Assembly: GCF_947501785.1 (NCBI RefSeq)
Contig: NZ_CANMXB010000001.1
Coordinates: 1,941,048-2,005,047 of the forward strand
Origin: an uncultured Litoreibacter sp.
Lineage (GTDB): Bacteria > Pseudomonadota > Alphaproteobacteria > Rhodobacterales > Rhodobacteraceae
Reading direction: 5' to 3'
DNA length: 64,000 nt
The translations under genes were made by a program, and so were the position numbers. Positions 29,863 to 60,835 of the stretch are shown here, in pieces. The notes beneath the pieces were generated by a model. The model searched no databases. It was not told the DNA's origin and was given only the letters and a program-made list of their open reading frames with translations. Within the stretch, counting starts at the first letter, position 1. Each line of letters starts with the position of its first letter.

Positions 29863-29918
29863 TACCGGGTGCTGCTCTCGGTGATTTTCGCCTAAGCGAA
29901 AATCACCTGCCGCACACT
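29863..29918 (-). other. Conserved 3' UTR RNA element, rplP copy
   Basis: Minus strand: AGTGTGCGGCAGGT, a perfect 12-bp hairpin (GGTGATTTTCGC / GCGAAAATCACC) and ACCGAGAGCAGCAC. The flanks are the same as in the copies after both tuf genes, while the stem sequence differs. It lies 12 nt after the rplP stop. Confidence 0.8.
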
Positions 29919-29930
29919 GTACGCGTGGAT

Positions 29931-30344
29931 TTACCAATCCTCGCGTACAACAACACGCGTCTTAATAGGCAGCTTCATCGCGGCCAGACGCAGGGCTTCG
30001 CGGGCGATGTCGTCGTTGACGCCATCGATCTCGAACATCATGCGGCCGGGTTTGACTTTGCAGGCCCAGAAATCGACAGAGCCTTTACCCTTACCCATAC
30101 GAACTTCGATAGGCTTCGAGGTGACGGGCAGGTCCGGGAAGATCCGGATCCACACGCGGCCTTGGCGTTTCATGTGACGTGTCATCGCACGACGGGCAGC
30201 CTCGATCTGGCGCGCGGTGATGCGCTCCGGCTCGGTGGCTTTCAGACCATAGGTGCCGAAGTTCAGGTCGGACCCGCCCTTCGCCTGACCTTTGATCCGA
30301 CCTTTGTGCATCTTGCGGAATTTAGTGCGTTTTGGTTGTAGCAT
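29931..30344 (-). CDS. rplP: 50S ribosomal protein L16
   Basis: A 137-aa protein, [20 protein letters not shown], with the conserved [17 protein letters not shown], located near the A-site tRNA. It is the last gene of the rplB unit, followed by the 3' UTR hairpin and terminator instead of rpmC. Confidence 0.98.
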
Positions 30345-30358
30345 CTAAATGCCCTCCT

Positions 30359-31066
30359 TTAGCGGCGGCCGCCAGCACCGCGAGGTGTTGGGCCGTCTTG
30401 GAGTTCCTGGGCTTTACGGTCACGTGCCTGTGGATCGTGTTCCATGATCTCGCCTTTGAAGATCCAGGTCTTGATCCCGATGATGCCATAGGCAGTCATC
30501 GCTTCGACATGTGCGTAATCGATATCGGCACGCAGCGTGTGCAAAGGCACGCGGCCTTCGCGGTACCATTCGGTCCGGGCGATCTCGGCGCCGCCAAGAC
30601 GACCCGCAAGGTTCACCCGGATACCCAGGGCCCCCATACGCATGGCGTTTTGTACGGCACGTTTCATCGCGCGGCGGAAGGACACACGGCGTTCCAGCTG
30701 CTGTGCAATGCTTTCGCCAACCAATGCGGCGTCCAGTTCGGGCTTGCGCACTTCAACGATGTTGAGGTGCAGCTCGCTGTCGGTGAACGCGGCCAGCTTC
30801 TTGCGCAGGCCTTCAATGTCGGCGCCTTTTTTGCCGATGATGACGCCCGGGCGGGCGGTGTGGATCGTGACGCGGCACTTCTTGTGCGGACGCTCGATGA
30901 TCACACGGCTGATGCCGGCTTGCTTGCACTCTTTGTTGATGAACTCGCGCATTTTGATGTCTTCCAGCAGAAGATCACCAAAGTCGGCGGAGTTCGCGTA
31001 CCAACGGCTGTCCCAGGTGCGGTTGACCTGCAGGCGCATACCGATCGGGTTTACTTTGTTACCCAT
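30359..31066 (-). CDS. rpsC: 30S ribosomal protein S3
   Basis: A 235-aa mRNA-entry protein with an N-terminal KH domain ([19 protein letters not shown]) and C-terminal domain [20 protein letters not shown]. The start overlaps the rplV stop by one base (TAATG). Confidence 0.98.
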
Positions 31067-31446
31067 TATGCTTGCTCCTCAACCTGGCGCACCAGGATTG
31101 TCAGTTCTGAAAACGGCTTGACGATCTTGCCGAACCGGCCACGGGCACGGGGGCGTCCGCGTTTCATCGTCAGGTTCTTGCCGACATAGGCTTCCGCCAC
31201 GATCAGCTCGTCCACGTCCAGGTTGTGGTTGTTCTCGGCGTTGGCAATCGCGGACTGAAGGCATTTCTTCACGTCGTCCGAGATGCGCTTCTTCGAAAAC
31301 GTCAGGTCGGCCAAAGCGCGGTCCACCTTCTTGCCACGGATCAGCTGAGCCACGAGGTTCAGTTTCTGCGGGGAGGTCCGAAGCATGCGCAGCTTTGCCA
31401 TTGCCTCGTTATCAGCCACGCGGCGGGCGTTTTTTTCCTTACCCAT
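31066..31446 (-). CDS. rplV: 50S ribosomal protein L22
   Basis: A 126-aa tunnel protein ([20 protein letters not shown]) with the beta-hairpin [20 protein letters not shown] that lines the exit tunnel. It follows rpsS by 3 nt. Confidence 0.98.
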
Positions 31447-31449
31447 GGC

Positions 31450-31728
31450 TTACTTCCTCTTCGCTTTTTTGTCAGCGGCGTGGCCATAATAGGTGCGGGT
31501 CGGGCTATATTCGCCGAACTTCTGACCGATCATGTCTTCAGACACGTTGACTGGGATGTGTTTCTTGCCGTTGTAGACGCCAAACGTCAGGCCCACGAAC
31601 TGGGGCAGGATCGTCGAGCGGCGCGACCAGATTTTGATAACTTCGTTGCGGCCAGATTCCTTGGACGCTTCGGCCTTTTTCAACACATGCGCGTCGACAA
31701 AAGGGCCTTTCCATACTGAACGAGACAT
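31450..31728 (-). CDS. rpsS: 30S ribosomal protein S19
   Basis: A 92-aa head protein, [19 protein letters not shown], with the C-terminal basic [19 protein letters not shown]. It lies 2 nt after rplB. Confidence 0.98.
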
Positions 31729-31730
31729 GT

Positions 31731-32573
31731 CTAACGCCCCTTCTTCTTAGCATGACGCGAACGCAGGATGAGCTTCGACGATGCTTTTTTCTTGTTACGG
31801 GTCTTGGCACCTTTGGTCGGTTTGCCCCAAGGGGTAACCGGGTGACGACCACCAGAGGTCCGGCCTTCACCACCACCATGCGGGTGGTCGATCGGGTTCA
31901 TCACAACACCACGCACAGACGGGCGGATGCCCTTGTGGCGGTTGCGGCCCGCTTTACCAAAGTTCTGGTTTGAATTGTCGGGGTTCGACACGGCACCAAC
32001 GGTGCACATGCATTCCTGACGCACGAGGCGCAGCTCGCCCGAGGAAAGGCGGATTTGCGCGTAACCACCGTCACGACCAACGAACTGCGCATACGTACCA
32101 GCGGCACGTGCGATTTGCCCGCCCTTGCCTGGCTTGAGTTCGATGTTGTGGATGATTGTCCCGATAGGAAGGCCCGAGAACGGCATCGCGTTGCCCGGCT
32201 TCACGTCGGCTTTCGCGGTAGAGATGATGGTGTCGCCAACGCCCAGGCGTTGCGGAGCAAGGATATAGGCCTGCTCGCCATCTTCATATTTGATCAGCGC
32301 AATGAAGGCTGTCCGGTTCGGGTCATATTCAATGCGCTCGACGGTCGCTGGAACGTCCATCTTGTTGCGTTTGAAATCGACGATACGGTAAAGGCGTTTC
32401 GCGCCCCCACCAATGCGACGCATCGTGATCCGCCCGGTATTGTTCCGGCCACCGCTTTTCGTCAAACCCTCGGTAAGGGATTTGACCGGACGGCCTTTCC
32501 AAAGTTCCGAACGGTCGATCAGAACCAACCCACGTTGGCCTGGCGTCGTCGGCTTATACGACTTAAGTGCCAT
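31731..32573 (-). CDS. rplB: 50S ribosomal protein L2
   Basis: A 280-aa protein near the peptidyl transferase centre, with the essential His in [21 protein letters not shown] start at 32573 ([18 protein letters not shown]); the 12 extra upstream codons are not conserved. rplB should follow rplW; here about 1.6 kb separates them and rplB heads its own unit. Confidence 0.98.
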
Positions 32574-32663
32574 GCTTTCTGTCTTCCGTTGTAAGTGGTC
32601 GGGACGCATCCCAACCTATATGTGTATAGGGCCCCTGAGGTCCCCGATGTGTTTTGCCCGTAG

Positions 32664-32681
32664 GGCGGGGTTCACCCCGCC
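32664..32681. repeat. GGCGGGGTTCACCCCGCC palindrome, copy b
   Basis: An 18-bp near-palindrome preceded by GTAG, in the leader of the rplB unit, about 90 nt before the start codon. Confidence 0.85.
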
Positions 32682-32697
32682 ATCCGCGCAACAACAA

Positions 32698-32719
32698 AGC
32701 CCCAGACGAATCTGGGGCT
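32698..32719 (-). terminator. Hairpin downstream of the ion-channel gene
   Basis: AGCCCCAGA-CGAA-TCTGGGGCT, a 9-bp perfect stem with a tetraloop, followed by TTGTTGTTG on the minus strand. It can terminate the channel gene. It also lies just downstream of a predicted rplB promoter, so it could attenuate the rplB unit. Confidence 0.75.
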
Positions 32720-32732
32720 GTGCCGATGGGGG

Positions 32733-32761
32733 TGTTTAGGTTGGAGGGGGTGTGGGGTCAA
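32733..32761 (-). promoter_or_regulatory. Predicted promoter of the rplB-rpsS-rplV-rpsC-rplP unit
   Basis: Minus strand: -35 TTGACC (32756-32761), 17-nt spacer, -10 TAAACA (32733-32738), about 160 nt upstream of rplB. The spacing and -35 are good and the -10 is moderate. The predicted transcript begins just before the hairpin at 32698-32719. Confidence 0.45.
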
Positions 32762-32823
32762 GACATAACTCGATACTTTACAGCGCAGGCAAGGTTGGCG
32801 ATTTATTGGTGCAGAGACCGACA

Positions 32824-33678
32824 TCAAACGTATGGCTTCTCCACGCCTGCCGACAAACTTGCCAGACGAACAGCCTCCGCATCTGCCACCTCCGTGTAAT
32901 AGGGCAAGCTGTCAGGAAAAAGTTGCCGTCTAGTACAAAAACTCACTTTTTCATAAGGCTCATTCTTGTTTGAGAAGTGGCAATAAATATGTGGATATCC
33001 GTAGTATTCGTCGCCCCCGAAATCCACGTCTTCAATGTTCTCAAACGGGATCCTTCCAATCTTGAGCACCTTGACAGAGTTTTCCCTCACTTCATCATCA
33101 TCTTTGTCTAATTTTAGTGGATCATGAACACGGAAGCGACCGTCGTCCAACGAGACTAGGTTATTCCACTGAAAACCAACGAGGATTCCTCGATGGTAAG
33201 TTCCAACCAAGCTAAGCCTAAACCAAGGCGAAATGCCGGTTTGGTTTTCTTCTAACTCTGGGTATTCATCCACGCGCTTCACATCGCGAATGATTACGTC
33301 TGACCTAAGTTCTTCAGAAAAATTCGTACGAATATGCTCTTCAAACTTGGGCTTCCACTTTTGTCGAAGCGCAATCTTTTGTTCTTCCTGTCGAACACCC
33401 ACGGCGAGATCAGACGTAAGCCTAAACAAAAACAACCCAAGCAATAATACTCCTAGCAAAACTTCGGATGCAGTAAAAATCATGGCTAAGCTTTTTGAGG
33501 GTGAAATGTCGCCGTAGCCTAGGGTCGTGATAGTCACAACGCTGAAGTACTGCGCCTCCCAAAACGATACAGGTTTCGAAAGTCCTTGAAGGAGGTAGTA
33601 CAAGAACCCGAACGCAAATACTGTTAACACATAAATTAGACCCCAGGTTATGGGCTTTGAGAAGTCGATTTTTGACAA
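32824..33678 (-). CDS. Two-TM ion channel protein, TTG start
   Basis: A 284-aa protein with two transmembrane helices (about 10-30 and 62-85) flanking a pore loop with the potassium-filter-like TTLGYGD (51-57), and a cytoplasmic C-terminal domain of about 190 residues without a recognised RCK signature. I start at TTG 33678, which has an AAGGA site; the frame stays open upstream but reads into palindromic element copy 3. A+T-rich compared with its neighbours and inserted between rplW and rplB. Probably a potassium channel; gating is unknown. Confidence 0.82.
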   Translation of the reverse strand: MSKIDFSKPITWGLIYVLTVFAFGFLYYLLQGLSKPVSFWEAQYFSVVTITTLGYGDISPSKSLAMIFTASEVLLGVLLLGLFLFRLTSDLAVGVRQEEQKIALRQKWKPKFEEHIRTNFSEELRSDVIIRDVKRVDEYPELEENQTGISPWFRLSLVGTYHRGILVGFQWNNLVSLDDGRFRVHDPLKLDKDDDEVRENSVKVLKIGRIPFENIEDVDFGGDEYYGYPHIYCHFSNKNEPYEKVSFCTRRQLFPDSLPYYTEVADAEAVRLASLSAGVEKPYV

Positions 33679-33755
33679 AGGCGTTTCCTTCAGCCTAGCA
33701 AATTGGCCGTGATCTAGTCTTCTTGCAGCTAAGCACACAGCACATGAATTCAATA

Positions 33756-33932
33756 GCCGGGCATCGCCGGACCGGGGGATGGCGATCTGAGGGCAGTTCT
33801 GCAGAGCTTTATCCTCGCCAAGCACATCTTCCATATCAGCGACGCACCAAGACCAACCAAATCGCCAGCCCGTGGGGCCGCCTCTCGGGCATCTGCGATG
33901 CCCTGCCGGTAACGGTCTGGCGATGCGCGGGC
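33756..33932. repeat. Palindromic element (MITE-like), copy 3
   Basis: Left end GCCGGGCATCGCCGGACCG (33756-33774), right end CGGTCTGGCGATGC (33913-33926), inner arms GGATGGCGAT and ATCGCCAGCC, and the core GCCAAGCACATCTTCC. A short extra hairpin (GGGCATCTGCGATGCCC) interrupts the right arm, making this copy longer (177 bp). Confidence 0.82.
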
Positions 33933-33993
33933 GCTACGCGCTGTTAACCGCGCAGTAATCCATCACCCCATTAACCACGATCTTCCCCGCGCG

Positions 33994-34035
33994 TGTCGGT
34001 ACAGGGTGTGTACAGCCTGTGTACGCATTGTGTAC
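33994..34035 (-). repeat. GTACACA array with 11-bp phasing, copy 2
   Basis: TGTCGGTAC at 33994, then TGTGTAC at 34007, 34018 and 34029. Reversed, this is GTACACA-atgc-GTACACA-ggct-GTACACA-ccct-GTACCGACA. The order and 11-bp phase match copy 1 at 3012; two of the three 4-bp spacers differ. Confidence 0.85.
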
Positions 34036-34142
34036 GCCGGTTTTCAGCCGAAATCGGCCTGTTAACCCTTATTTCTATGGGTCCAGCCCCTACCCCACCA
34101 AAACACCCCTGTACGCACCGATTAACCTTTCAGAAACGAAAA

Positions 34143-34168
34143 AACCCGACCCATTTCCGGGCCGGGTT
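34143..34168 (-). terminator. Terminator of the rpsJ-rplC-rplD-rplW unit
   Basis: AACCCGACCC (34143-34152) pairs with GGGCCGGGTT (34159-34168) with one mismatch, and is followed by TTTTTTCGTTTC on the minus strand. It is about 43 nt after the rplW stop. Confidence 0.9.
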
Positions 34169-34185
34169 CTTTGCAATTTCCGTAG

Positions 34186-34203
34186 GGCGGGGTTCACCCC
34201 GCC
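34186..34203. repeat. GGCGGGGTTCACCCCGCC palindrome, copy c
   Basis: An 18-bp near-palindrome preceded by GTAG, 7 nt after the rplW stop and upstream of its terminator. Confidence 0.85.
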
Positions 34204-34210
34204 GCGAGGC

Positions 34211-34507
34211 TTAAAGGCCAGTCGAGACGTCGATTGTGTTGCCCTCTTCAAGGGTCACATACGCCTTCTTGACGTCCTTACGTTTGCCGAGCTGGCCCCG
34301 GAACCGCTTGGATTTACCCTTTGTAATCGTGGTGTTGACCGCTTTGACCTTCACGCCAAAGAGGTTTTCAACCGCCTCTTTGATCTGTGGTTTGTTGGCC
34401 TCGATCGACACTTCGAACACAACCGCGTTGGCTTCCGATGCCATGGTTGCTTTCTCGGTGATGATCGGCTTGCGGATCACGTCGTAATGTTCAGCTTTAG
34501 CGCTCAT
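34211..34507 (-). CDS. rplW: 50S ribosomal protein L23
   Basis: A 98-aa tunnel-exit protein that docks trigger factor and SRP. I start at 34507 ([20 protein letters not shown]); a frame open 60 codons further up overlaps rplD and is not real. It overlaps the rplD stop by 4 nt. It is the last gene of its unit, whereas rplB would normally follow. Confidence 0.97.
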
Positions 34508-35124
34508 GACAGACGAGCCTCCAATGCTTCCAGACCGGCTTTGGTGATGACCAAAGTGTCGCGTTTCAGGATGTCGAACACGTTCGCGCCCATCGTCGGC
34601 AGAATGTCCAACCCATTGATATTGCGGGCAGCTTGCGCAAATTCCGCGTTCACTTCGGCACCATCGATGATCAGGGCGCGCTTCCAACCCAGCTCTTTGA
34701 CCTGAGCGGCCAGAGCCTTGGTTTTTACGTCCTTGACGTCGATGTTGTCCAGGATCACCAGCTCACCCGCATTGGCTTTCGCCGACAGCGCGTGCATCAG
34801 GCCCAGCTTGCGGACCTTCTTGGGCAGATCATGGCCGTGGCTACGTGGCGTCGGGCCTTTGTAGACACCACCACCGCGGAAGATCGGAGCAGACCGCGCG
34901 CCGTGACGTGCGCCGCCGGTGCCCTTCTGGCGATAGATCTTCTTGGTGGAATAGTTCACCTCGGAACGGGTCTTCACCTTGTGGGTGCCGGCCTGCGCGT
35001 TGTTGCGCTGCCAACGGACCACACGGTGCAGAATGTCCGCACGTGGCTCCAGGCCGAAGATGGCGTCAGACAGCTCAACCGAGCCAGCCTTCTTGCCGTC
35101 GAGTTTGATGGCATCAGCTTTCAT
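34504..35124 (-). CDS. rplD: 50S ribosomal protein L4
   Basis: A 206-aa protein. I start at 35124 ([20 protein letters not shown]), overlapping the rplC end by 11 nt. The tunnel loop includes [20 protein letters not shown]. In E. coli L4 represses the S10 operon; no equivalent leader was recognised upstream of rpsJ. Confidence 0.97.
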
Positions 35125-36001
35125 CGGACTTGTCTCCTTCTGGGGCTGCATCTGCTTCAGGAGCATCGCCCTCGGCCTGATCGGCCTGGATGGACGCTTC
35201 TGCTTCAGCCAATGCGGCGGCTTCTTGTGCGGCTTGCTCTTCCGCTGCTGCGGCTGCGGCGGCTTCTGCTTCAGCAGCGGCTGCTGCTGCGGCTTCTTCA
35301 GCGGCTTTCTCAGCTTCTTTGGCGGCGGAAGCCAGACCAGCGGGGAACAGGGTGTTCTCGGACAACGGCTTTTTCACCGCGTCTTTAACAGTGACCCAGC
35401 CACCTTTGGAGCCGGGAACGGCGCCTTTGATCATGATCAGGCCACGAGCCGTGTCAGTCTTCACAACCTGCAGGTTCTGCGTGGTAACACGGGCAGCACC
35501 CATGTGACCGGCCATTTTCTTGCCTTTGAACACCTTGCCCGGATCCTGACACTGACCGGTGGAGCCGTGCGAACGGTGGGAGATCGACACACCGTGGGTC
35601 GCGCGAAGGCCCCCAAAGTTGTGACGCTTCATCGCACCGGCAAAGCCTTTACCGATCGACGTACCGGCAACATCAACAAACTGGCCTTCAAAGTAATGGG
35701 CCGCGATGATTTCTTCGCCAACGGGGATCAGGTTCTCTTCCGCAACGCGGAATTCAGCGACCTTACGCTTTGGCTCAACCTTGGCGGCTGCAAAGTGACC
35801 GCGCATCGCTTTGGATGTGCGTTTCGCTTTCGCTGTGCCAGCACCAAGCTGAACCGCTGTGTAGCCGTCTTTCTCAGCAGTACGCTGAGCGACAACTTCC
35901 AGCTTGTCGAGTTGAAGAACGGTCACAGGAACCTGCTTGCCGTCTTCCATGAAGAGGCGGGTCATGCCGACCTTCTTCGCAATTACACCGGAGCGCAACA
36001 T
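35114..36001 (-). CDS. rplC: 50S ribosomal protein L3 with Ala/Glu-rich C-terminal extension
   Basis: A 295-aa protein. Residues 1-220 are a normal L3 ([36 protein letters not shown]). Residues about 222-295 form an unusual tail of Ala, Glu, Gln and Asp ([20 protein letters not shown]), probably helical or disordered, ending [13 protein letters not shown]3 usually has about 205-240 residues. The tail overlaps the rplD start. It could be group-specific; its role is unknown. Confidence 0.97.
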
Positions 36002-36015
36002 ACGTAAGCCCTCCT

Positions 36016-36327
36016 TTAAACTTTAATTTCGACGTCAACGCCGGCAGCAAGGTCGAGCTTCATCAGCGCGTCCACAGTCTGCGGAGTTGGGTCGACGATA
36101 TCCAGCAGACGCTTATGCGTGCGGATTTCGAACTGGTCACGAGATTTCTTGTCCACGTGTGGGCCACGCAGAACGGTGAATTTCTCGATCTTGTTTGGAA
36201 GCGGGATCGGGCCACGCACGTCAGCGCCGGTGCGCTTTGCGGTGTTTACGATCTCTTGGGTAGATGCATCCAGAACCCGGTAGTCAAACGCCTTCAGGCG
36301 GATGCGAATGTTTTGGCTTTGTGCCAT
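36016..36327 (-). CDS. rpsJ: 30S ribosomal protein S10 / NusE
   Basis: A 103-aa protein, [20 protein letters not shown], of standard length from 36327. It works in the 30S head and as NusE in antitermination. It is the first gene of its unit, separated from tuf1 by about 1.1 kb of inserted DNA. Confidence 0.98.
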
Positions 36328-36452
36328 TACACATATCCCTCTTGAGAGAGGTCTCAACGGATTGGAGGAGATCGGCTCATCCGAGCCCCTCGTCGCGTCT
36401 TATGGCGGAACATAAAGAGGGGCACGCGTGCGTACCCCTGTTCCGTAGGGTG

Positions 36453-36481
36453 CGTATAGACAGGGTTGTAGAGAGTCGCAA
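36453..36481 (-). promoter_or_regulatory. Predicted promoter of the rpsJ-rplCDW unit
   Basis: Minus strand: -35 TTGCGA (36476-36481), 17-nt spacer, -10 TATACG (36453-36458), about 125 nt upstream of rpsJ. It has the same -10 and spacing as the rplO promoter. It lies only about 30 nt downstream (in transcription sense) of palindromic element copy 4. Confidence 0.6.
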
Positions 36482-36512
36482 CACCTTTTCGGGTAATAAA
36501 TGCTGGAGATCA

Positions 36513-36654
36513 GCCGGGCATCGCCAGACCGCGGGGTGGCGAGCTAAGTGACGTTCTGCAGGGCTTTATTGAGGCCAAGTACATCTTCCATTCATATGGC
36601 GCGCTTATGGTAGCCAAATCGCCAGCCCTGTCGGGCGGTCTAGCGATGCCCGGC
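36513..36654. repeat. Palindromic element (MITE-like), copy 4
   Basis: 142 bp with terminal inverted repeats GCCGGGCATCGCCAGACCG (36513-36531) and 36636-36654 (18/19), nested arms GGGGTGGCGA / TCGCCAGCCC, and the core GGCCAAGTACATCTTCC. Best-preserved copy. It lies between the HEPN-like gene and the rpsJ promoter, inside a 384-bp gene-free stretch (36328-36711). Confidence 0.88.
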
Positions 36655-36711
36655 GCCTTCGGCTTGGTTCCGGGCTGGGGGAGAACTTACACCATTTCTA
36701 GTCTGGAGACA

Positions 36712-37245
36712 TCAGGCAATAACGTGCGCTCTGTTCTGTCGTAACTCTAGCCAGTTCAGATCCGACTTTCGTTTTCCAGGCAACGCGATCCAAGGGTCAC
36801 ACCCTAGTTCAGCAATAGATCTAGATCTCAAACCATCTATCCCAGCACGGACGGCAAGCACTTTGTTGCGACAGACGTCCAAGTCAAAAACCCTTGCACC
36901 ATGAACCATCTTGTTGCGCATACGGACCGCTTCTGGAATGTGCTGCCAAACCTGATTGCCTAAGAAATCGGGTAGCGTCCGATGCTCTCTCTCAAAAACC
37001 GGCCATAAAGCTACGAGGTCATGAAACCCCTTATTCTTAAGAAGCGCGTCACACTGCTTTGAAATAAAACCCCTATTTAGAGCGCAGAACCTTAGTGACC
37101 GACGCATAGTTTTCTCCATCGCAAAAACGGAAGCTAACAACGCCTCTGCGTGGTGTTCATTTTTTGTGAGTGCATCTAGTCTTTTGACGACTTCAGGGTA
37201 TCCCAGACTGACAGGGTACATCGGTTCTCCAAATAAATTCTTCAA
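36712..37245 (-). CDS. Orphan AT-rich protein with HEPN-like motif
   Basis: A 177-aa, mostly helical, soluble protein. R110-NKMV-H115 (AVRMRNKMVHG) fits the R-x4-6-H motif that forms the RNase active site in HEPN domains of toxins and defence proteins, and it lies in a helix-rich context (HHAEALLASVFAMEKTMRRS). Membership rests on this motif and helicity only. There is no adjacent MNT-type antitoxin. Low G+C compared with the flanking tuf1 and rpsJ points to acquisition. It lies downstream of the tuf1 terminator. Confidence 0.6.
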   Translation of the reverse strand: MKNLFGEPMYPVSLGYPEVVKRLDALTKNEHHAEALLASVFAMEKTMRRSLRFCALNRGFISKQCDALLKNKGFHDLVALWPVFEREHRTLPDFLGNQVWQHIPEAVRMRNKMVHGARVFDLDVCRNKVLAVRAGIDGLRSRSIAELGCDPWIALPGKRKSDLNWLELRQNRAHVIA

Positions 37246-37313
37246 GAAATGCTTAATTTTACGATTCGTATCCGCAGATTCATAATAGTCTCAGCATCAA
37301 ATATGTAGCTAAA

Positions 37314-37341
37314 AAGGCCGCCTCCTTTCGGAGACGGCCTT
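37314..37341 (-). terminator. Terminator after tuf1
   Basis: AAGGCCG (37314-37320) pairs with CGGCCTT (37335-37341), and CTCC with GGAG, around TTTC; TTTTT follows on the minus strand. It ends the str unit (rpsL-rpsG-fusA-tuf1). Confidence 0.92.
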
Positions 37342-37351
37342 CTCTATTTCA

Positions 37352-37407
37352 ACCGTAGTGCTGCTCTCGGTCACTTTCTCCAAGAAGAAAGCAACCTGCC
37401 GCACACT
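37352..37407 (-). other. Conserved 3' UTR RNA element, tuf1 copy
   Basis: Minus strand: AGTGTGCGGCAGGT, a hairpin of about 11 bp with G-U pairs (GGTTGCTTTCT / AGAAAGTGACC) and ACCGAGAGCAGCAC. It lies 17 nt after the tuf1 stop and 10 nt before the terminator. Confidence 0.82.
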
Positions 37408-37424
37408 GGTGTTGATGTCCTAAA

Positions 37425-38600
<1,176 letters not shown>

Positions 38601-38630: not shown

Positions 38631-38684
38631 GGCGGGGTGAACCCCGCCCTACGGGGTGGGTGGTAGGGCGGGGTTCACCCCGCC
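38631..38684. repeat. Inverted pair of GGCGGGGT palindromes, copies d and e
   Basis: GGCGGGGTGAACCCCGCC (38631-38648) and GGCGGGGTTCACCCCGCC (38667-38684) face each other across 18 nt in the fusA-tuf1 gap, so alternative large hairpins can form. They may modulate tuf1 read-through. Confidence 0.85.
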
Positions 38685-52214: not shown

Positions 52215-52465
52215 GCTCGTAGTCGCCTTTCAGTTTCCTCGGTCATGTCACCCCGGGGCCGGGCGGCATAACACTTGGATAAGGGGCGGTTCACTCAATA
52301 CCTGCGCATCTTCCCACGGATGCGCTCCCGAGCGGTTTTACCGTTCCTTAGAGAAGGCCTTTATCGCGTCCAGCCGTGAAAGGCCCTCTCTGAGACGCGG
52401 AAAGCCGGACCCGAAATTCATCGGGTCCAGCTCTTTTCTTGAACCGCAGCCGAAGCTGCGTCCGA
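52215..52465 (-). promoter_or_regulatory. rplL-rpoB intergenic leader with attenuator hairpins
   Basis: A 251-nt untranslated region. On the minus strand it contains CGCAGC-TTCG-GCTGCG (52445-52460) next to the rplL stop, and then GGACCCGA-TGAATT-TCGGGTCC (52407-52428). Further pairings are possible around AAGGCCTT and GGGGCGG/CCGCCCC. In Rhodobacterales an RNA motif called rhodo-rpoB has been described at this position; I could not check whether this leader matches it. It probably sets the ratio of ribosomal protein to polymerase mRNA. Confidence 0.55.
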
Positions 52466-52846: not shown

Positions 52847-52919
52847 TATACTGTTTCCGTTCCATTAAGTTGTGTTCCAACGTGTAGCTTTCAAGCCCAC
52901 GAGGGTATCTGTCCAAAGA

Positions 52920-53435: not shown

Positions 53436-53620
53436 AGTTTCACTCCAATTGTGGAGGGTTGCCCCTCCGGCTCAGTTTTGCCCGTGTTACCACGGGCGTT
53501 CGGGTCCAATTCAGGGTCCCGAGGCCAAAATCACCCGAAGGTCGAAACCTGCGGTATCTGTCTCGTTTCCCATCTCAGGAAGGAATTATTCAGCTTTCGC
53601 CAAACCCTCCGTCTCGGACA
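53436..53620 (-). promoter_or_regulatory. Candidate L10 leader
   Basis: The 5' region of rplJ. On the minus strand it has GATGGGAAACGAGACAG, then CCCGTGGTAACACGGG and GGAGGG/CCCTCC hairpins close to the start codon. L10-L12 complexes repress their own operon by binding such leaders in many bacteria. The match is by position and general shape, not by alignment. Confidence 0.5.
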
Positions 53621-53623
53621 GAA

Positions 53624-53641
53624 CGGGGCGTCGCCGCCCCG
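53624..53641 (-). terminator. Hairpin after rplA
   Basis: CGGGGCG-TCGC-CGCCCCG, a 7-bp stem 33 nt after the rplA stop. The T tract is poor, so it is likely a partial terminator or processing site. Confidence 0.55.
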
Positions 53642-53673
53642 CTAAATGGCCCCGTTGCCCGGGACCAGATCTC

Positions 53674-54369
53674 TTAGTTGCCGGTCGCGTTTTCGACGTT
53701 AATCGTCACGCTTGGGCCCATGGTCGAAGACACGACGATCTTCTTCATGTAAGTGCCTTTGGCACCGGCAGGCTTGTTCTTGGACACGGCACCAACGAAG
53801 GCGCGCACGTTTTCTACCAGCTTGGCTTCATCGAATGAGGCTTTGCCGATGCCTGCGTGAACCACGCCAGCTTTTTCAACCTTGAACTGCACTTCGCCGC
53901 CTTTGGCAGCTTTGACAGCGGCTTCCACATCCATGGTGACCGTGCCCACTTTGGGGTTCGGCATCAGGTTGCGGGGGCCAAGCACCTTACCCAGACGGCC
54001 AACGATTGGCATCATGTCAGGGGTTGCGATGCAGCGGTCAAAGTCGATCTTGCCGCCTTGCACGATTTCCATCAGGTCCTCGGCGCCGACAACATCTGCG
54101 CCAGCCGCTTTGGCTTCATCAGCCTTTGCGTCACGGGCGAACACGGCGACGCGGACGTCTTTGCCGGTGCCGTTTGGCAGAGCCACAACGCCGCGGACCA
54201 TTTGGTCAGCGTGGCGCGGATCAACACCGAGATTCATTGCGATTTCGACGGTTTCGTCAAACTTGGCTTTGGCGTTGTTCTTCACCAGGGCCACAGCTTC
54301 TTCGACGGTGACGTCGCGCTTGCCTGCGAATTGCTCGCGGGCTGCGATTGTACGTTTACCTTTGGCCAT
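53674..54369 (-). CDS. rplA: 50S ribosomal protein L1
   Basis: A 231-aa L1-stalk protein ([40 protein letters not shown]). In many bacteria L1 represses rplKA by binding its leader. The ATG overlaps the rplK stop by one base (TAATG). Confidence 0.98.
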
Positions 54370-54794
54370 TACTTCACCTCGATGCCCATAGAGCGGGCAG
54401 AGCCCGCGATGATCAGCATTGCGCCTTCGATGTCGTTCGCGTTCAGATCTTTCATCTTCGCTTCTGCGATTTCACGCAGCTGCTTGGATGTGACCGAACC
54501 GACGACTTCGCGCGACGGTGTGTTGGCGCCGGATTTAACTTTGGCAGCCTTTTTCAGGTAGTAAGACGCAGGCGGCGTCTTGATGTCCATCGAGAAGGAC
54601 TTGTCCTGATAATAGGTGATCACGGTTGGGCATGGGGCGCCTGGCTCCATGTCCGCGGTCTTGGCGTTGAACGCCTTGCAGAATTCCATGATGTTGATGC
54701 CGCGCTGACCCAGTGCTGGGCCTACGGGCGGGGATGGGTTGGCTTGACCTGCAGGAACCTGCAGCTTCATCGTGCCAGCGATCTTCTTGGCCAT
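54369..54794 (-). CDS. rplK: 50S ribosomal protein L11
   Basis: A 141-aa GTPase-centre protein ([20 protein letters not shown]) of standard length, needed for RelA activation. It is about 100 nt after nusG. Confidence 0.98.
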
Positions 54795-54895
54795 GTGGCC
54801 TCTCCTTCTTACAACAGCCTCGGGTCGCGACCCTTAGCTTACGATTGTTGTGGTCCGACTTTCCGGGCGCGCCCGGGTCCTCTCCCACAGATTTC

Positions 54896-55429
54896 TCAGC
54901 TCGCTTTCGTGACCTGAGTAAATTCCAGCTCGACCGGGGTCGCCCGGCCAAAGATCGAGACAGTCACCTTCAGGCGCTGCTGCTCATCGTCTACTTCTTC
55001 CACCATGCCCGAGAAGCCTTCGAACGGGCCGTCGGTGACGGATACATTTTCGCCCACGTCGAAGACGATTGTTGAACGCGGTGCTTCGGCACCCTCTTCA
55101 ACGCGACCCAGGATGGCCTGAACCTCGGCGTCGCGCATTGGCATTGGCTTGCCTTGCGGACCCAGGAATCCGGTTACGCGGTTGATGCTGTTGATCAAAT
55201 GGTAGCCCGCGTCGGACATCTCCATATGCACCAGCACGTAGCCGGGCATGAAGCGGCGTTCGGCGGTAACCTTTTTATTTCTTCTGATTTCAATGACTTC
55301 CTCGGTCGGCACCAGAACTTCGCCGAAATCGTCCTGCAGGCCGTTTTCTTCGACAGAGGTGCGGATCTGTTCAGCAATGCGCTTCTCGAAGTTCGAGAGG
55401 ACAGAGACCGAGTACCACCGTTTCGCCAT
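54896..55429 (-). CDS. nusG: Transcription elongation factor NusG
   Basis: A 177-aa protein with the NGN domain ([20 protein letters not shown]), the hydrophobic [13 protein letters not shown] segment contacting polymerase, and a C-terminal KOW domain ([19 protein letters not shown]) that binds S10 or Rho. Normally adjacent to secE; here a GAF-EAL gene lies between them, and a terminator-like hairpin lies 44 nt before the nusG start. Confidence 0.98.
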
Positions 55430-55473
55430 TGCAGAATTGCCTTTATAATCAGAGCCTTACCGAAACGAAAACA

Positions 55474-55498
55474 GCGCGCATCCCGAATCAATGCGCGC
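55474..55498 (-). terminator. Hairpin with T-rich tail between EAL gene and nusG
   Basis: GCGCGCAT (55474-55481) pairs perfectly with ATGCGCGC (55491-55498), followed on the minus strand by TGTTTTCGTTTCGG. It may terminate the EAL gene or act as an attenuator in the nusG leader. Confidence 0.75.
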
Positions 55499-55657
55499 CA
55501 TCTGTTTGGTGTTGGGGGCTGACTACCGCTCCGAGCCCTTAAGATCAAGGGGTTAACGCCCCCAAAATGCATGTGTCTAGAAAGCGTCTTCCTTGCGTAT
55601 AGATCGCGTTTAGACGAATACGCCGTTAACCTTCGGGATCAACAGGCACTGCATCAG

Positions 55658-56893
55658 CTATGCGCTTTCGCGCCATGCGTTGCCAAACCACGCTTTCGCG
55701 CTCTCAAGATCAGATGGTCGGCCCAGCAGATAGCCCTGCCCCAAGGGGACGCACAGCTCGCGCAATGTTGCCAGCTCTCCCTCTGTCTCGATGCCTTCGG
55801 CAACGATTTTGGCCCCGGTTTCCGTCGCGAACCGGACAAGTGCGCCCGCCAGAGATCGGCGCACAACGTCACTGTCGACGCCCGTGGTCAGCGAAATGTC
55901 GAGCTTGATAATGTCGGGCTGCAAACGCACGATTTGCTGCAAGCCGGAATAGCCCGCGCCGGCGTCGTCAACAGCCAGTCGGATGCCCGCTGCGCGCATC
56001 AGCAAAAGCTGATCCAACAGCAGCTCGGCATCGGTGATTTCAGCGTGCTCGGTCACCTCCAACACGATGCGGTGTGGCGCATAGGGTTCGAACAATTCCC
56101 CAATACGGCCAGTCTCCACCGTGGCGGGCGACGCGTTCACAGAGACATAGATATCGTCGGGAAGATGATTGAGTGCCTCTAAAGCCACCTTGATCACACA
56201 AAGTTCCAGATCGGCCTGAAGCCCGACGGTATGGGCATCGTCAAACCACAGGTTTGGCGGGCGATACGGTTCCGCCTGAAACCGGCAGAGCGCTTCGAAG
56301 CCCACCGGTCGCCGACCCGAAATGTCCATTATCGGCTGTAAGGCAATGTCGAAGCTTTGGGTCTCAATGATGTTGACTATGGTGGCGCGCAGTTCTTCTT
56401 CCTGCGTGCGCAGGCTGATCGTGTCATTGATTTGGTCCGCAGACAGGTTGGCGAAAGCTCGCATCACCTCTAGATCGCGGTCGTTCAAGTTGGTCTGCGT
56501 CTGCCGAGACATACAACAAAACATACCATAGGGCGTTCCGTCGCGCCGCCGGATCGGGACGCTGACATGGCTTTTGATTGGGACGGCGTGGGTCAACGCG
56601 ATGTCCTGGGCAAGCGGCTCAAGCTCGGTGTTGGGGATCATTTCAGGCAATCTGCCCTCCAGAATATGGCGACAATAGACCTGTTCCAACGGCATGGATT
56701 GCCCCACGTCGATCATGTCTTCCAAGCCCGACGCGTCGACAGCGCGGAACACCAGATCATCACCAACGAATTCCGAAAGATAGGCCACTTCCATCCCAAG
56801 ATGCTGACGCACAAAGCTGAGGGATGAAGAGATGATGTCATCCGCATTGGCGGCGTCCAACAGCGGGGCGATCATCATGTCTGTATTTGTCAT
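55658..56893 (-). CDS. GAF-EAL cyclic-di-GMP phosphodiesterase
   Basis: A 411-aa soluble protein. A GAF sensor domain (about 15-155) is followed by an EAL domain (about 165-405). The catalytic set is complete: EALCR (GFEALCRF), Asn in VSVNAS, Glu in EVTE, the DDAGAG pair, Lys in IIKLD, Glu in AEGIE and Gln in GQGYLLGRP, so it should hydrolyse c-di-GMP to pGpG. No GGDEF domain. It sits on the same strand between secE and nusG. Confidence 0.92.
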   Translation of the reverse strand: MTNTDMMIAPLLDAANADDIISSSLSFVRQHLGMEVAYLSEFVGDDLVFRAVDASGLEDMIDVGQSMPLEQVYCRHILEGRLPEMIPNTELEPLAQDIALTHAVPIKSHVSVPIRRRDGTPYGMFCCMSRQTQTNLNDRDLEVMRAFANLSADQINDTISLRTQEEELRATIVNIIETQSFDIALQPIMDISGRRPVGFEALCRFQAEPYRPPNLWFDDAHTVGLQADLELCVIKVALEALNHLPDDIYVSVNASPATVETGRIGELFEPYAPHRIVLEVTEHAEITDAELLLDQLLLMRAAGIRLAVDDAGAGYSGLQQIVRLQPDIIKLDISLTTGVDSDVVRRSLAGALVRFATETGAKIVAEGIETEGELATLRELCVPLGQGYLLGRPSDLESAKAWFGNAWRESA

Positions 56894-57030
56894 AGGGCAT
56901 CCAACGCGAGGGAAATTACCGCGTCACGGCTAAGGCCCGACCCTGAACAGAAGGTTACTTCTCCCTCGCCTACTACCGTAGGATTAACCCAAATTTTAGA
57001 GGAATTGGCGGCGGCTTGCGCAGCCAGCGG

Positions 57031-57225
57031 CTAGAACAGCCCGAAGACCGAATTCAGCCCGGTGCGGATGGTCAGATCAACGAGGCTGAAGAAAATCGCG
57101 GTCAGCGTTGCCATGATGAACACCATTACCGTAGTCAAAACCACCTCACGGCGGGTCGGCCAGACGACCTTTGCAACTTCCGCGCGGGTTTGCTGGATGA
57201 ATTGGGCCGGGTTGGTGATCGCCAT
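57031..57225 (-). CDS. secE: Protein translocase subunit SecE
   Basis: A 64-aa single-TM short SecE (MAITNPAQFIQQTRAEVAKV, then VWPTRREVVLTTVMVF) that clamps SecY. I start at 57225; the frame runs 27 codons upstream into the promoter region. It is separated from nusG by the GAF-EAL gene and from tRNA-Trp by two unrelated genes. Confidence 0.95.
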   Translation of the reverse strand: MAITNPAQFIQQTRAEVAKVVWPTRREVVLTTVMVFIMATLTAIFFSLVDLTIRTGLNSVFGLF

Positions 57226-57261
57226 GGTGCTGCGCCTTCGGGTTCGCGTGTAACTCACTGG

Positions 57262-57290
57262 CAGATACGGCCGTTGCGCCCGGTTTGCAA
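57262..57290 (-). promoter_or_regulatory. Predicted secE promoter
   Basis: Minus strand: -35 TTGCAA (57285-57290), 17-nt spacer, -10 TATCTG (57262-57267), ending 37 nt upstream of the secE ATG. The same -35 hexamer precedes tRNA-Trp. Confidence 0.55.
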
Positions 57291-57382
57291 GGGGGCGCCG
57301 CCGCACCGCTCACCAAAAGGTGGCTTGGCGTGTGCAGCAATTGCGCATTAGCGTGGGGCAACGCATATCGAAAGGGCCTTTC

Positions 57383-57979
57383 ATGAAACACGTTCTCGCC
57401 GCCGCCTTGGTGGCCATTGCCCTGCCCGCCGCGGCGCAAACCGTAGACGAAACCGCCCCGACGCCTGAGGGTGAACCATCGTCGCGCGACCTTGTTTCGC
57501 CAAAGGCTGATATCCCAGACACCGAGGCCGCGATGACCGTCCAACGTTTGGGCGAGATCGTGTCGGCCTTGGACCCCGACAGCCAAACCGATGGGGCGCG
57601 GTTTCAACTGACCATCGAAGACGTCCCGGTCCTGATTATTACCGATTGGCGGGCCGACCGAATGCGGGCCATGGTGCCAATCCGCGCCATGGAAGGCATG
57701 ACCGGCGACGAAATTCTGCGCGTCATGCAAGCCAATTTCGACACCGCGCTGGACGCACGTTACGCCGTGGCGCAAGGGCGTCTTTGGGGCGTGTTCATTC
57801 ACCCGCTGTCGCCCTTGGAAAAGGACCAGTTGATCTCAGGGCTTGGGCAGGCGGTGAATTTGGCCAAGACCTACGGCTCGCTTTACACCGGCGGGGCCAT
57901 GTCCTTTGGCGGCGGAGACAGCGTGCCGCTGCAGCGCCAACTGATCGACCGGCTGCTCAAGCAGGGCGAAGAAATCTAG
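57383..57979 (+). CDS. Secreted protein, possibly YbjN-like
   Basis: A 198-aa protein from 57383 (MKHVLAAALVAIALPAAAQT, a signal peptide cut near AQT). The mature part starts with a Pro/Glu-rich stretch, then an alpha/beta domain (FQLTIEDVPVLIITDWRADR; MQANFDTALDARYAVAQGRL) resembling YbjN/type III chaperone-fold proteins; this is a weak resemblance. The 3' end overlaps the convergent esterase gene by 4 nt. Confidence 0.6.
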   Translation: MKHVLAAALVAIALPAAAQTVDETAPTPEGEPSSRDLVSPKADIPDTEAAMTVQRLGEIVSALDPDSQTDGARFQLTIEDVPVLIITDWRADRMRAMVPIRAMEGMTGDEILRVMQANFDTALDARYAVAQGRLWGVFIHPLSPLEKDQLISGLGQAVNLAKTYGSLYTGGAMSFGGGDSVPLQRQLIDRLLKQGEEI

Positions 57980-58758
57980 TCGTCCACCAGCCGCGCGAAC
58001 TGGTCCAGTACCATTTGCATGATGGGCTGACCTTGCGCATCAACCCCGTCCAGCACCGCATCCACCTGCGTGGCGTGGCCCGGCACTCCGGTGTCGATCA
58101 AGGTCACTGGCGCCTGTACGCCCTCCGCCCGCTGGGCGCCGACCCGCGCGTTGGAGATGTTGATCACCCGGTCTTGCGGCCCGTGAATAAGCAGGCAGGC
58201 GGGCCCGTCCTCTTCCAGCCGCCACGGCTGGACAATGGCGGCGCTGATGGCCACCACGGCATCGGGCCTGGACACCCGCTGCATCCAGTGGGTGGGCGGG
58301 TACGCCAGGGCCAGCCCGGCGATGCCGCCAGCGGAAACCCCAAGAATGCCAAGTTTGCGGTGGGCGATGCCCAGCCCCTCGCCTTCCACCCATAAATACT
58401 CAACGGCGCGCGACAAATCCTCCATCGCCGCGATGAAGGCCGCGCCATAAAGATTGGGGGACAGGGTCAGCCCCAGCTTCTCGGTGCGGCCCATATAGGC
58501 CTCGATATAGCCCTGCTGTTTGTCAGTGAACGCGTCTGCAGTCGTGCCCAACCGGTAGGTGACGGACGCCATGGCAAACCCGGCCTCCGTCAACGCGGTT
58601 GCAAAATGCGCCACCTCGTCGCCGTCGCGCCGCCCTTTGCGGAAGCCGCCGCCATGGGCGTAAATCACGCAGGCCGAGGCCTTCAGATCGTCGGGCAGGT
58701 AAAGGTCGAATGCGAGGTCGTTTTGGGTGTCGTAGACAATGTCGGAAACGCACTTCAT
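57976..58758 (-). CDS. Alpha/beta-hydrolase esterase (HSL/BD-FAE type)
   Basis: A 260-aa hydrolase. The oxyanion motif HGGG is at 35-38; nucleophile Ser142 in GVSAGG; acid Asp198 (HGPQDRV); base His230 (GVPGHATQ). Acts on small esters or acylated compounds; the substrate is unknown. No signal peptide. It lies 58 nt downstream of tRNA-Trp on the same strand and may share its transcript. Confidence 0.87.
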   Translation of the reverse strand: MKCVSDIVYDTQNDLAFDLYLPDDLKASACVIYAHGGGFRKGRRDGDEVAHFATALTEAGFAMASVTYRLGTTADAFTDKQQGYIEAYMGRTEKLGLTLSPNLYGAAFIAAMEDLSRAVEYLWVEGEGLGIAHRKLGILGVSAGGIAGLALAYPPTHWMQRVSRPDAVVAISAAIVQPWRLEEDGPACLLIHGPQDRVINISNARVGAQRAEGVQAPVTLIDTGVPGHATQVDAVLDGVDAQGQPIMQMVLDQFARLVDD

Positions 58759-58816
58759 CCGGCAGCCATACCGTGTTCACCCTATCAACCGGTTCACGCC
58801 TCTCAGGGCGTTTATG

Positions 58817-58892
58817 TGGCAGGGGATGAGAGACTCGAACTCACGACCCTCGGTTTTGGAGACCGATGCTCTACCAACTGAGCTAATCCCCT
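58817..58892 (-). tRNA. tRNA-Trp (CCA anticodon)
   Basis: 76 nt including an encoded CCA end. The acceptor stem is AGGGGAT/ATCCCCT with discriminator G; the D arm is TAGCTCAGTTGGTAGAGC; the anticodon stem TCGGT/ACCGA holds loop CTCCAAA, giving anticodon CCA. The T arm contains GAGTTCGAGTCTC. Association with secE-nusG is usual in alphaproteobacteria. Confidence 0.97.
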
Positions 58893-58906
58893 GCACTTGA
58901 GAGAGG

Positions 58907-58935
58907 TGATTACGAAAGGTGGGGGGCGTTTGCAA
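58907..58935 (-). promoter_or_regulatory. Predicted tRNA-Trp promoter
   Basis: Minus strand: -35 TTGCAA (58930-58935), 17-nt spacer, -10 TAATCA (58907-58912), ending 14 nt before the tRNA 5' end. Apart from this, the 58893-59176 gap shows nothing. Confidence 0.6.
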
Positions 58936-59176
58936 GAGTTGATCCGCATTCCCGCGCTCAGCGGTGATGCATCTGACGCAGCCACGCCACGGTGACGCCG
59001 GCAGGCAGATGCACATGGTCTGTGCCTGCACGCCTGGCGCGGGCAGGTCTCCGTTATCGTTGGGTTTTGGCGCAGATGCGGTGCCATTTTCACGCGACCT
59101 CACCAAAACTCACAAAGGGTTGGTTGGCCTGCGACGGGCTGCCGCAGGTAGCCTTCTTGCCAGAAGGAGATCAGCC

Positions 59177-59746
59177 ATGCCCGAAACCAAAGCTATATCC
59201 CACACCCTGCCCCTGTCGCGACGCGCCTTTGTTGCCAGTTCTGCGCTGTCCGCGCTGGCGATCGGGGCGGCCACACAGGCCCGTGCGTCGGACCCCCATC
59301 ATCGGCGCCTTACTCATACGGACGATTTTGACTACGCCGTCACCCGTAGCGACGAGGAATGGCGCGCCATGCTCACCCAGGATGAATACGACATCATGCG
59401 GCGCGGCAACACCGAGTTCCCCAAATCCAGCCCCCTGTGGAACGAGCAGCGCAATGGCCTGTACCACTGCAAAGGCTGCGATCTGGAGGCCTATGATGCG
59501 CGCTGGAAAGTGCCGCTCGACAAGGGTTGGGTGTTCTTCACCCATTCGCAAACCAACGCGGTGCTGACCGGCATTGACGGCCCGGTGGCCGAATACGGCA
59601 ACGCCATGGGCGACAGCACAATTGCGCATGTCGAGGTCCATTGCCGCCGCTGCGGCAGCCATCTGGGCCACCTGCTGCCCGTCGACGGCCATCAGGTGCA
59701 TTGCATCAACGGGGCCGCGCTGACGTTTGAGGCAGCCGCCGCGTAA
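59177..59746 (+). CDS. Tat-exported MsrB-like protein
   Basis: A 189-aa protein from 59177 (AAGGAGA site). It has a twin-arginine signal (LPLSRRAFVASSALSALAIG), then an MsrB fold. Zinc cysteines are C98/C101 (CKGC) and C156/C159 (CRRC), and the expected catalytic Cys176 is in VHCINGAAL. The usual GWPSF substrate motif reads GWVFF here. MsrB reduces methionine-R-sulfoxide; an exported version would protect envelope proteins. The altered motif leaves activity open. Confidence 0.85.
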   Translation: MPETKAISHTLPLSRRAFVASSALSALAIGAATQARASDPHHRRLTHTDDFDYAVTRSDEEWRAMLTQDEYDIMRRGNTEFPKSSPLWNEQRNGLYHCKGCDLEAYDARWKVPLDKGWVFFTHSQTNAVLTGIDGPVAEYGNAMGDSTIAHVEVHCRRCGSHLGHLLPVDGHQVHCINGAALTFEAAAA

Positions 59747-59851
59747 CGGCAAATCCCTGCGCACCACCGGCCAGATAGCCGGTGGCACAGGGCCGCTATT
59801 CGCACTATCGTCGGGCCAGAAGAAACCATCCGGTCACGAGGGAACGCGCCA

Positions 59852-60691
59852 TTGGAGCTCGCTGAGATCGAGGCATTGCACGCGCAACACGCCCGCGCCG
59901 ACTTTGGGACAACCACCCCCGACGAGTTGGCGTATATTCAGGAAACCATCCGCACCTACAAGCCGCGCAAAATCCTTGAAATTGGCACGGCATCCGGCCT
60001 GACCACCGGCTTTCTCGCCAGGTTTCTTGAGGAGGTTGGCGGCGACAGCGTGACGTCCATAGACTCGGAAGATGTGTTCTTCGGGGATCACCGCAAGAAG
60101 GTGGGCTATCTCGCATCAGCCATCTACGACGGACAATCGGTTCGGACCCGGATCGAGGCGGGAAAATCCTCGCTCGATCTGGCCAGTCTGGACGGGCCGT
60201 GGGACTTGGTGTTCGTCGACGCCAGCCACAACCATCCCTGGCCGACCCTGGACACATTGGCAGTGGCTCCGCACCTGTCCGGCGCCCGTATCGTTATTCA
60301 CCACGATTTGCAGCTGTTCCGTCGGTTCCCCCGCTTCCTCGGCATCGGCCCTCGCGTGCTGTTCAACGAAACACCTCAGACGCATCGCCACGCCGGCGCT
60401 GCCAACGGCTGGAACATCTTCCGCATCGACCTGTCGATGGAGCCGGTCCTGCTGGAAGAAATGGGGCTGAACGCGCTGAGCATGCCATGGACGGCACGCC
60501 CGCCCCTGTCAAAGCGCGAGGTCGCGCTGTTCCGCGAGGTGCTGCGCGACATCTACAGCCCCGGCTTCTGGGCCCAGTTTGATGTTTGCGAGAAACAGAA
60601 CCGGTGGAACGCGACAAAAATGGCCTATTTCTACGTCAGATACGCCGCCGCCAAGCTACGCAACGCGCTACTGGGGCGGAGCCGGGCATAG
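59852..60691 (+). CDS. Class I SAM-dependent methyltransferase, TTG start
   Basis: A 279-aa protein starting at TTG 59852. The SAM-binding glycine motif is ILEIGTASGLTTGFLA; motif II is the acidic residue in SIDSED and DLVFVDASHNH. It resembles methyltransferases of the Methyltransf_24 type, often linked to glycan or natural-product modification; the substrate is unknown. It ends about 55 nt before the tuf2 terminator of the opposite strand. Confidence 0.8.
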   Translation: MELAEIEALHAQHARADFGTTTPDELAYIQETIRTYKPRKILEIGTASGLTTGFLARFLEEVGGDSVTSIDSEDVFFGDHRKKVGYLASAIYDGQSVRTRIEAGKSSLDLASLDGPWDLVFVDASHNHPWPTLDTLAVAPHLSGARIVIHHDLQLFRRFPRFLGIGPRVLFNETPQTHRHAGAANGWNIFRIDLSMEPVLLEEMGLNALSMPWTARPPLSKREVALFREVLRDIYSPGFWAQFDVCEKQNRWNATKMAYFYVRYAAAKLRNALLGRSRA

Positions 60692-60744
60692 GTGGCTGGG
60701 TCACGGCCGTCGGTGAGTTGGGATCCGTGACCATTTGTTATGCG

Positions 60745-60776
60745 AAAAGGCCGCCTCCTTTTGGAAGCGGCCTTTT
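60745..60776 (-). terminator. Terminator after tuf2
   Basis: AAAAGGCCGC (60745-60754) pairs perfectly with GCGGCCTTTT (60767-60776), extended by TCC/GGA. It lies 9 nt beyond the conserved 3' UTR hairpin and between convergent genes. Confidence 0.93.
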
Positions 60777-60785
60777 CTATTTCTC

Positions 60786-60835
60786 TACCGAGTGCTGCTC
60801 TCGGTGATCCCGAAGAGGATCACCTGCCGCACACT
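60786..60835 (-). other. Conserved 3' UTR RNA element, tuf2 copy
   Basis: Minus strand: AGTGTGCGGCAGGT, hairpin GGTGATCC-TCTTC-GGGATCACC and ACCGAGAGCAGCAC, then TCGGTA. It lies 16 nt after the tuf2 stop. Shortest stem of the three copies, with identical flanks. Confidence 0.82.

Follow-up and report, generated by a model that had tools for sequence, protein, structure and literature searches.

The 64,000-nucleotide stretch analysed here, which we call the window (positions 1,941,048 to 2,005,047 of contig NZ_CANMXB010000001.1, from an uncultured Litoreibacter sp.), carries behind rplP, tuf1 and tuf2 copies of a structured element family of the Rhodobacteraceae that displays strong covariation. 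The copies combine a constant hairpin (H2) with an abutting first hairpin (H1) that, at these three genes, spans the stop codon. With confidence and doubt about evenly balanced, we propose that they are short palindromic elements of an insertion type, non-coding and forming a family of low copy number that is commonest at the ends of translation-apparatus genes and is kept at tuf and rplP as a structure of the 3' untranslated region (UTR). The insertion-type nature we infer: antisense copies in rRNA spacers and RNase P RNA, patchy occurrence and copied ettA gene ends are data of which an insertion-type palindromic element explains more than its rivals do.

Architecture and covariation of the second hairpin

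H2 is some 45 nt long and comprises an outer stem, a 4x4 internal loop with GGCA facing GAGA and a variable inner stem, followed by a short tail. On the minus strand of the window it occupies 29868..29918 behind rplP (outer stem GTGTGC/GCAGCAC, inner stem of 12 bp), 37357..37407 behind tuf1 and 60791..60835 behind tuf2, as determined from sequence and folding; NCBIfam names the hosts L16 and EF-Tu (tuf1 being the EF-Tu copy tested). Intrinsic terminators, identified by direct reading and folding, follow on the same strand at 29819..29854, 37311..37344 and 60745..60776, with stems that begin 13-15 nt past the GCAC of the element. As these three copies sit between stop codon and terminator they should be transcribed, and none of 200 shuffles is predicted to fold as well as their 3' UTRs, terminators included (z = -6.4, -7.4 and -8.2).

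In minimum free energy (MFE) folds the inner stems at rplP, tuf1 and tuf2 measure 12, 12 and 9 bp, correcting the 12, 11 and 8 bp of the original prediction from this DNA. The same prediction had drawn an outer stem with one mismatch; in the MFE folds of tuf1 and tuf2 it takes the form of AGUG/CACU and UGC/GCA, a single 3' base being bulged out between them, followed by the 4x4 internal loop. At rplP, two of these pairs appear in one MFE fold and six when a different stretch is folded. The two 14-mers said to be shared by three copies are each present exactly three times in the window with no mismatch, and jointly they match the genome three times, always at rplP, tuf1 and tuf2, a reversed control giving no match. 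Starts predicted at 12-17 nt past the stop codon agree with the 12 (rplP), 17 (tuf1) and 16 nt (tuf2) that we measured, and the terminators, placed 9-10 nt past the element, actually lie 7-9 nt from the ends that the prediction had assumed. Its description of three copies holds for H2 and overlooked both the abutting H1 and another, plus-strand copy. This fourth copy has its H1 at 25238..25286, a long near-perfect palindrome with no coding sequence attached here, and its H2 at 25288..25335, where the outer stem reads GTGCGC/GCGGCAC and a U-A pair has become C-G.

Covariation in a larger alignment, named beforehand as decisive for the prediction, is present. The set examined holds 78 unique sequences (77 scored; a first, smaller set held 52) that were anchored solely on GRCA and GAGA, and 26 of the 104 model-match entries were left out for not having both anchors; since the sequences were chosen by these anchors, invariance of the loop within the set is by construction. 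Pairing at in2, in3, in5, in6 and out3 reaches 82-91%, where shuffles average 44-63%, and each of these positions is seen with several pair types (0.91 against 0.52 at in2, 0.91 against 0.63 at in3, 0.82 against 0.44 at in5, 0.86 against 0.50 at in6 and 0.82 against 0.48 at out3), figures that are to be read with shuffles that do not keep relatedness among the sequences and with matches that, having been picked by a covariance model, lean toward its structure. Pairing at out2 is 0.90 against 0.67. In4 is weaker (0.70 against 0.56) and often a pyrimidine mismatch, and in1, in7 and out1 are uninformative, with observed values near the shuffled ones. For the outermost three pairs, the one-base 3' bulge is required in 35 sequences, excluded in 11 and ambiguous in 29. 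A predicted alternative fold, ACCG with CGGT, was dropped: among the 78 sequences CGGT occurs independently of ACC, being found in the tail of 14 of the 32 whose stem ends in ACC and 23 of the 46 whose stem does not.

Distribution and host genes

A first covariance model, built from five sequences, two of them from relatives, matched 17 of 21 same-genus genomes (the window's own included; count read from the result table) at E <= 0.01 and none of 24 genomes of other families. Two later models followed, which matched at least 28 of 295 genomes of the family at E <= 0.001, with loop and flanks shared across 27 genera; when more candidates were scored in 40 genomes from as many genera, at least 7 matched at E <= 0.01, and among 142 genomes drawn from the class the model matched just the window's own. 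Copy and genus counts are lower bounds, because only part of the first-look candidates was scored. The window's genome has at least five clear copies (150 of 1990 candidates scored), namely those at rplP, tuf1 and tuf2, the fourth window copy and one behind gatB; a further possible copy, at G000:C1:362138, comes from a search with a bare pattern and was not reported by the models. Outside the genus this pattern (GCGGCAG...CGAGAGC) proved too weak to use, controls scoring as high as matches among the matches listed.

Copies are also present in Roseivivax lentus and in a Flavimaricola metagenome-assembled genome. Named genomes yielded at least 118 stretches and 80 loci; a permissive stem filter left at least 28 rows, from which seven loci were chosen by eye (L126, L156, L170, L175, L176, L178 and L185; L and G numbers are our labels for loci and genomes). 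Carriage by phages was rejected on 11 stretches from one viral scan, which lack the H2 architecture by eye, their pairing being unscored. No known Rfam RNA family fits the element, none reaching its gathering score on it in scans of the window and of loci. Matches overlapping the element in a scan of six loci are far below gathering (for example Thr_leader at L013 with 22.6 of 55 bits, Leu_leader at L019 with 21.1 of 50; E 1-5), and a match at L245 is to the host RNase P RNA. A literature search turned up no paper on the element, and we claim nothing wider than that search.

Copies near tuf and rplP in related genomes, as predicted, were found. The models span H2 and the tail, not the host gene, and hosts were named by NCBIfam for representatives. 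By gene-end pattern, 18 unique sequences stand behind tuf, 17 behind rplP, 10 behind ettA, four behind lepA and two behind gatB, 51 in all among the 104 entries. For 66 of 97 unique matches, a co-oriented open frame of 100 codons or more stops no further than 85 nt upstream, in some of them by chance. Other hosts include a TIGR02466/2OG-Fe(II) oxygenase, a MaoC-like dehydratase, RfbA, an SNase-domain protein, a GroEL-like gene end named by eye (L054) and, as a weak case, valS; these hosts cover part of the matches, counted at protein genes in sense orientation. The element also follows the signal recognition particle (SRP) RNA at L090, L096, L104 and L102. In rRNA operons it lies antisense beside tRNA-Ala and tRNA-Ile (twice at L170 and at L249; a weak sense-strand match at L170 2369-2435 overlaps a stronger antisense copy and is uncounted). 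At L245 an RNase P RNA harbours it, again antisense, as 84 nt in the tip of P3 where the consensus has 4. Reading the element as a structured RNA of translation-factor 3' UTRs stands in so far as it covaries and lies behind tuf and rplP in relatives, but the element is not confined to 3' UTRs; the roles put forward with that reading, a small RNA from the 3' UTR, a processing signal or a site for protein binding, are conjectural.

The first hairpin and the ends of host genes

In the window, the 5' arm of H1 begins 19 (rplP), 27 (tuf1) and 28 nt (tuf2) before the end of the stop codon, and so lies within the last 19, 27 and 28 nt of the gene, stop codon included. At rplP (29919..29949, minus strand) the fold has a GGTA loop and a 3' arm past the stop codon; at tuf1 (37408..37451) and tuf2 (60836..60879), also on the minus strand, the arm pairs across the stop codon with an inverted copy. 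Among the 515 window stop codons at the ends of open frames 60 or more codons long, complementarity across the stop ranks second at tuf2, third at tuf1 and ninth at rplP. Rank one belongs to a plus-strand frame near 38666, upstream of tuf1, perhaps another hairpin between fusA and tuf1. At many genes H1 is sequence near the gene's own end together with its inverted copy, the longest cases being behind ettA, lepA and gatB.

H1 is phased to H2. Where the gap could be anything from 0 to 8 nt, H1 stops 0-1 nt short of H2 in 67 of 98 unique matches, and in 80 it comes within 2 nt. In a control test that by construction fixes the end gaps at 0-3 nt, 21 of 97 matches reach an H1 score of at least 30, against 2, 1, 2 and 0 of 91-97 in four controls; a control shifted by 10 nt, which still overlaps H1, gives 9 of 97. 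At tuf, 40 of 41 pairs summed over positions -13 to -25 show synonymous third-position changes matched by the opposite arm (8/8 at -13, 7/8 at -16, 8/8 at -19, 8/8 at -22 and 9/9 at -25), in columns made from sequences with pairing of at least 70% and at least 11 (11 of 18 for tuf, 12 of 17 for rplP). A few of these sequences have a self-contained H1 and align loosely, and the gatB loci L080 and L082 dropped out, their anchor being absent.

Occurrence behind a given gene is patchy. By our reading of the sequences, within one genus H2 follows rplP in 9 of 18 genomes, a variant in five and neither in four. The variant (G001, G003, G007, G009 and G013; L271, L261, L268, L272 and L264) has another outer stem, GGCGGA/TCCGCC, in the same place, keeps GGCAG and has lost GAGA on the 3' side of the loop. 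Behind ettA, also within one genus and by our reading, H2 is found in four of 20 genomes, the variant in one and neither in 15. Of the 11 loci with H2 or the variant, 6 have an inverted copy of the ettA end that is strong (score of at least 15), against 0 of 15 without, where the maximum is 9; the shuffled maximum is 11. The inverted-copy pattern missed H2 in L250 and L253, both of which were reassigned by hand from model matches. In 5 of the 11 loci (L239, L317/L085, L253, L244 and L247) H2 is succeeded by a further, direct copy of the ettA end, which a search allowing substitutions only found in none of the 15 without H2. Between the two ettA ends, 8 (L239) and 9 (L317) of 36 positions are different, by our reading all of them synonymously, and the second copy therefore looks like an older, genuine gene end. 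Two units stand in tandem behind ettA in L247 and L253. As a separate observation, most of the 20 same-genus genomes (L300-L319) have different DNA immediately past the stop codon of ettA, as if this were a hot spot of gene turnover.

A narrower version of the insertion-type reading is tentative, and we lean against it: a mobile hairpin specialised on gene ends, which would travel as gene end, inverted gene end and constant hairpin, give a conserved translation gene new, synonymous final codons and leave the old end behind, so that the first hairpin would come tailored to its host. At tuf and rplP, the element might be kept for its effect on the message. A terminating ribosome would hold H1 open; on its departure H1 could close over the stop codon beside H2, and the pair of hairpins may then hinder 3'-to-5' exonucleases and protect the mRNA. 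Such a protective benefit would explain retention with compensatory changes. If the favoured insertion-type reading is right, an element family absent from Rfam has repeatedly come to lie at core translation gene ends, in rRNA spacers, in RNase P RNA and by SRP RNA, and often makes one of its hairpins from the host gene. The origin and spread of gene ends with inverted copies would become testable, as would the question of whether such hairpins set the stability of very abundant mRNAs in a major marine group.

Competing explanations and related elements

The element could instead be a dedicated cis-acting RNA of the Rhodobacteraceae, whose GGCA/GAGA loop in H2 would be recognised by a protein or ribonuclease that jointly controls the stability of translation-apparatus mRNAs. 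Covariation around a common loop, the bias of hosts toward translation, the frequency of open frames ending just upstream in the same direction and the compensatory change in H1 at tuf all speak for this possibility, a serious rival that we nonetheless regard as somewhat doubtful: antisense copies in rRNA spacers and RNase P RNA and absence behind the same genes in close relatives count against it, few of the sampled genera matched (seven of 40 as a lower bound), and the invariance of the loop stems from the choice of anchors. We know of no H2-binding protein, none having been searched for beyond the literature search. A small RNA derived from the 3' UTR, or a processed 3' fragment, acting in trans, was put forward by the original prediction; the antisense copies speak against it, since neither the rRNA nor the rnpB transcript could yield them as fragments of this kind. 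The compact, structured 3' end of about 100 nt with its terminator at three window copies would suit a trans-acting RNA, but no conserved unpaired seed is apparent by eye, no Rfam small RNA reaches gathering score, and reading the sequence around the copies at gatB and ettA brought no terminator to light; we consider this very unlikely. Also disfavoured, and in our view quite unlikely, are ordinary gene-end hairpins, that is, upstream terminator parts or chance palindromes drifting without specific function. Terminators do follow three window copies, and the four same-genus rplP 3' ends with neither H2 nor the variant also have hairpins by our reading; against this explanation stand the loop and flanks common to model matches from 27 genera, the covariation and the phasing of H1 to H2.

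Several observations count against the insertion-type reading that we favour. Movement has not been observed, and no mobilising enzyme or autonomous relative turned up, the loci not having been searched systematically for transposases. About five copies per genome is a small number for a selfish repeat. Different genera have the element at the same places (tuf, rplP, ettA and lepA), and the compensatory changes point to selection acting on the structure. Direct flank copies are a minority, with 15 of 95 scoring at least 14 (none of 95 in shuffles) and three of these being similarity of one tRNA to another; their size and form vary. Bacterial miniature inverted-repeat transposable elements have terminal inverted repeats with target site duplications, to which such flank copies may or may not correspond. 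Five of the 11 ettA loci with H2 have no strong inverted copy, and among the second ettA ends L253 has one non-synonymous change in seven, L247 has more and L244 a frameshift. Nor is H1 always derived from the gene, since in several rplP and tuf copies the hairpin lies wholly in the UTR. At an H1 score of at least 20 the contrast with controls is weaker (70 of 97 against 33, 19, 26, 14 and 25), the tuf position -28 agrees in just 2 of 5 pairs, and mirroring is incomplete in the rplP and ettA columns.

Among the publications cited here, the elements nearest in behaviour appear to be those of Rickettsia found in RNase P RNA, and YPAL. Rickettsia palindromic elements (RPE) measure 105-146 bp, have terminal inverted repeats and carry open reading frames fused into proteins; like the present family they are short palindromic alphaproteobacterial elements that lie between genes and in RNA genes, RNase P RNA included (PMC2229807). 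The 84-nt insert at L245 likewise lies inside an RNA gene. Compared by description only, the present family differs from RPE in its H2 of about 45 nt, its position mostly past stop codons and an H1 that often copies the host gene end. YPAL/RU-2 of Yersinia (168 bp) shares internal inverted repeats and variable target duplications (3-26 bp), and its targets span or adjoin dyad symmetry; it comes from another lineage, and an inverted gene-end copy is not mentioned for it in the excerpt at hand (PMC2229807). Repetitive extragenic palindromes (REPs) of the GTAG and CGTC families, many of them plausibly transcribed and the CGTC type predominant in Alphaproteobacteria, are described as high-copy and end-tagged (PMC3733652). 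The present elements are likewise palindromic, and by eye several H1 hairpins open with CGTC; this start is not constant, H2 bears no constant tag of the GTAG or CGTC type, and the constant part is the H2 loop. Identity with high-copy REPs fails on copy number, at least five clear copies being present in the genome. Integron attC sites, diversity-generating retroelements and integrase attachment sites were also weighed as conceivable parallels. A working analogy, with no sequence or structural relation shown, is to mRNA hairpins that affect segmental stability, which we cite from the title of a reference in PMC6238624.

The surroundings of the window copies add some minor observations. A counterpart of the fourth copy occurs in G007, G009 and G011, where a similar copy stands behind a 2OG-Fe(II) oxygenase gene. 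The fourth copy lies upstream of a gene that we take to be rpmC. The genes rplP and rpmC are usually adjacent; here about 4.8 kb (window 25150-29930) separate rplP from the presumed rpmC, and the space between holds genes for a 2OG-Fe(II) oxygenase and for a protein whose catalytic domain is Tle1-like. The open frame behind the tuf1 element (36712-37245, minus strand) has no Pfam match at E 0.001. Elsewhere in the window, Rfam recognises two leader RNAs, Rhodo-rpoB at 52244-52334 and L2-Alphaproteobacteria at 32576-32645 (both on the minus strand).

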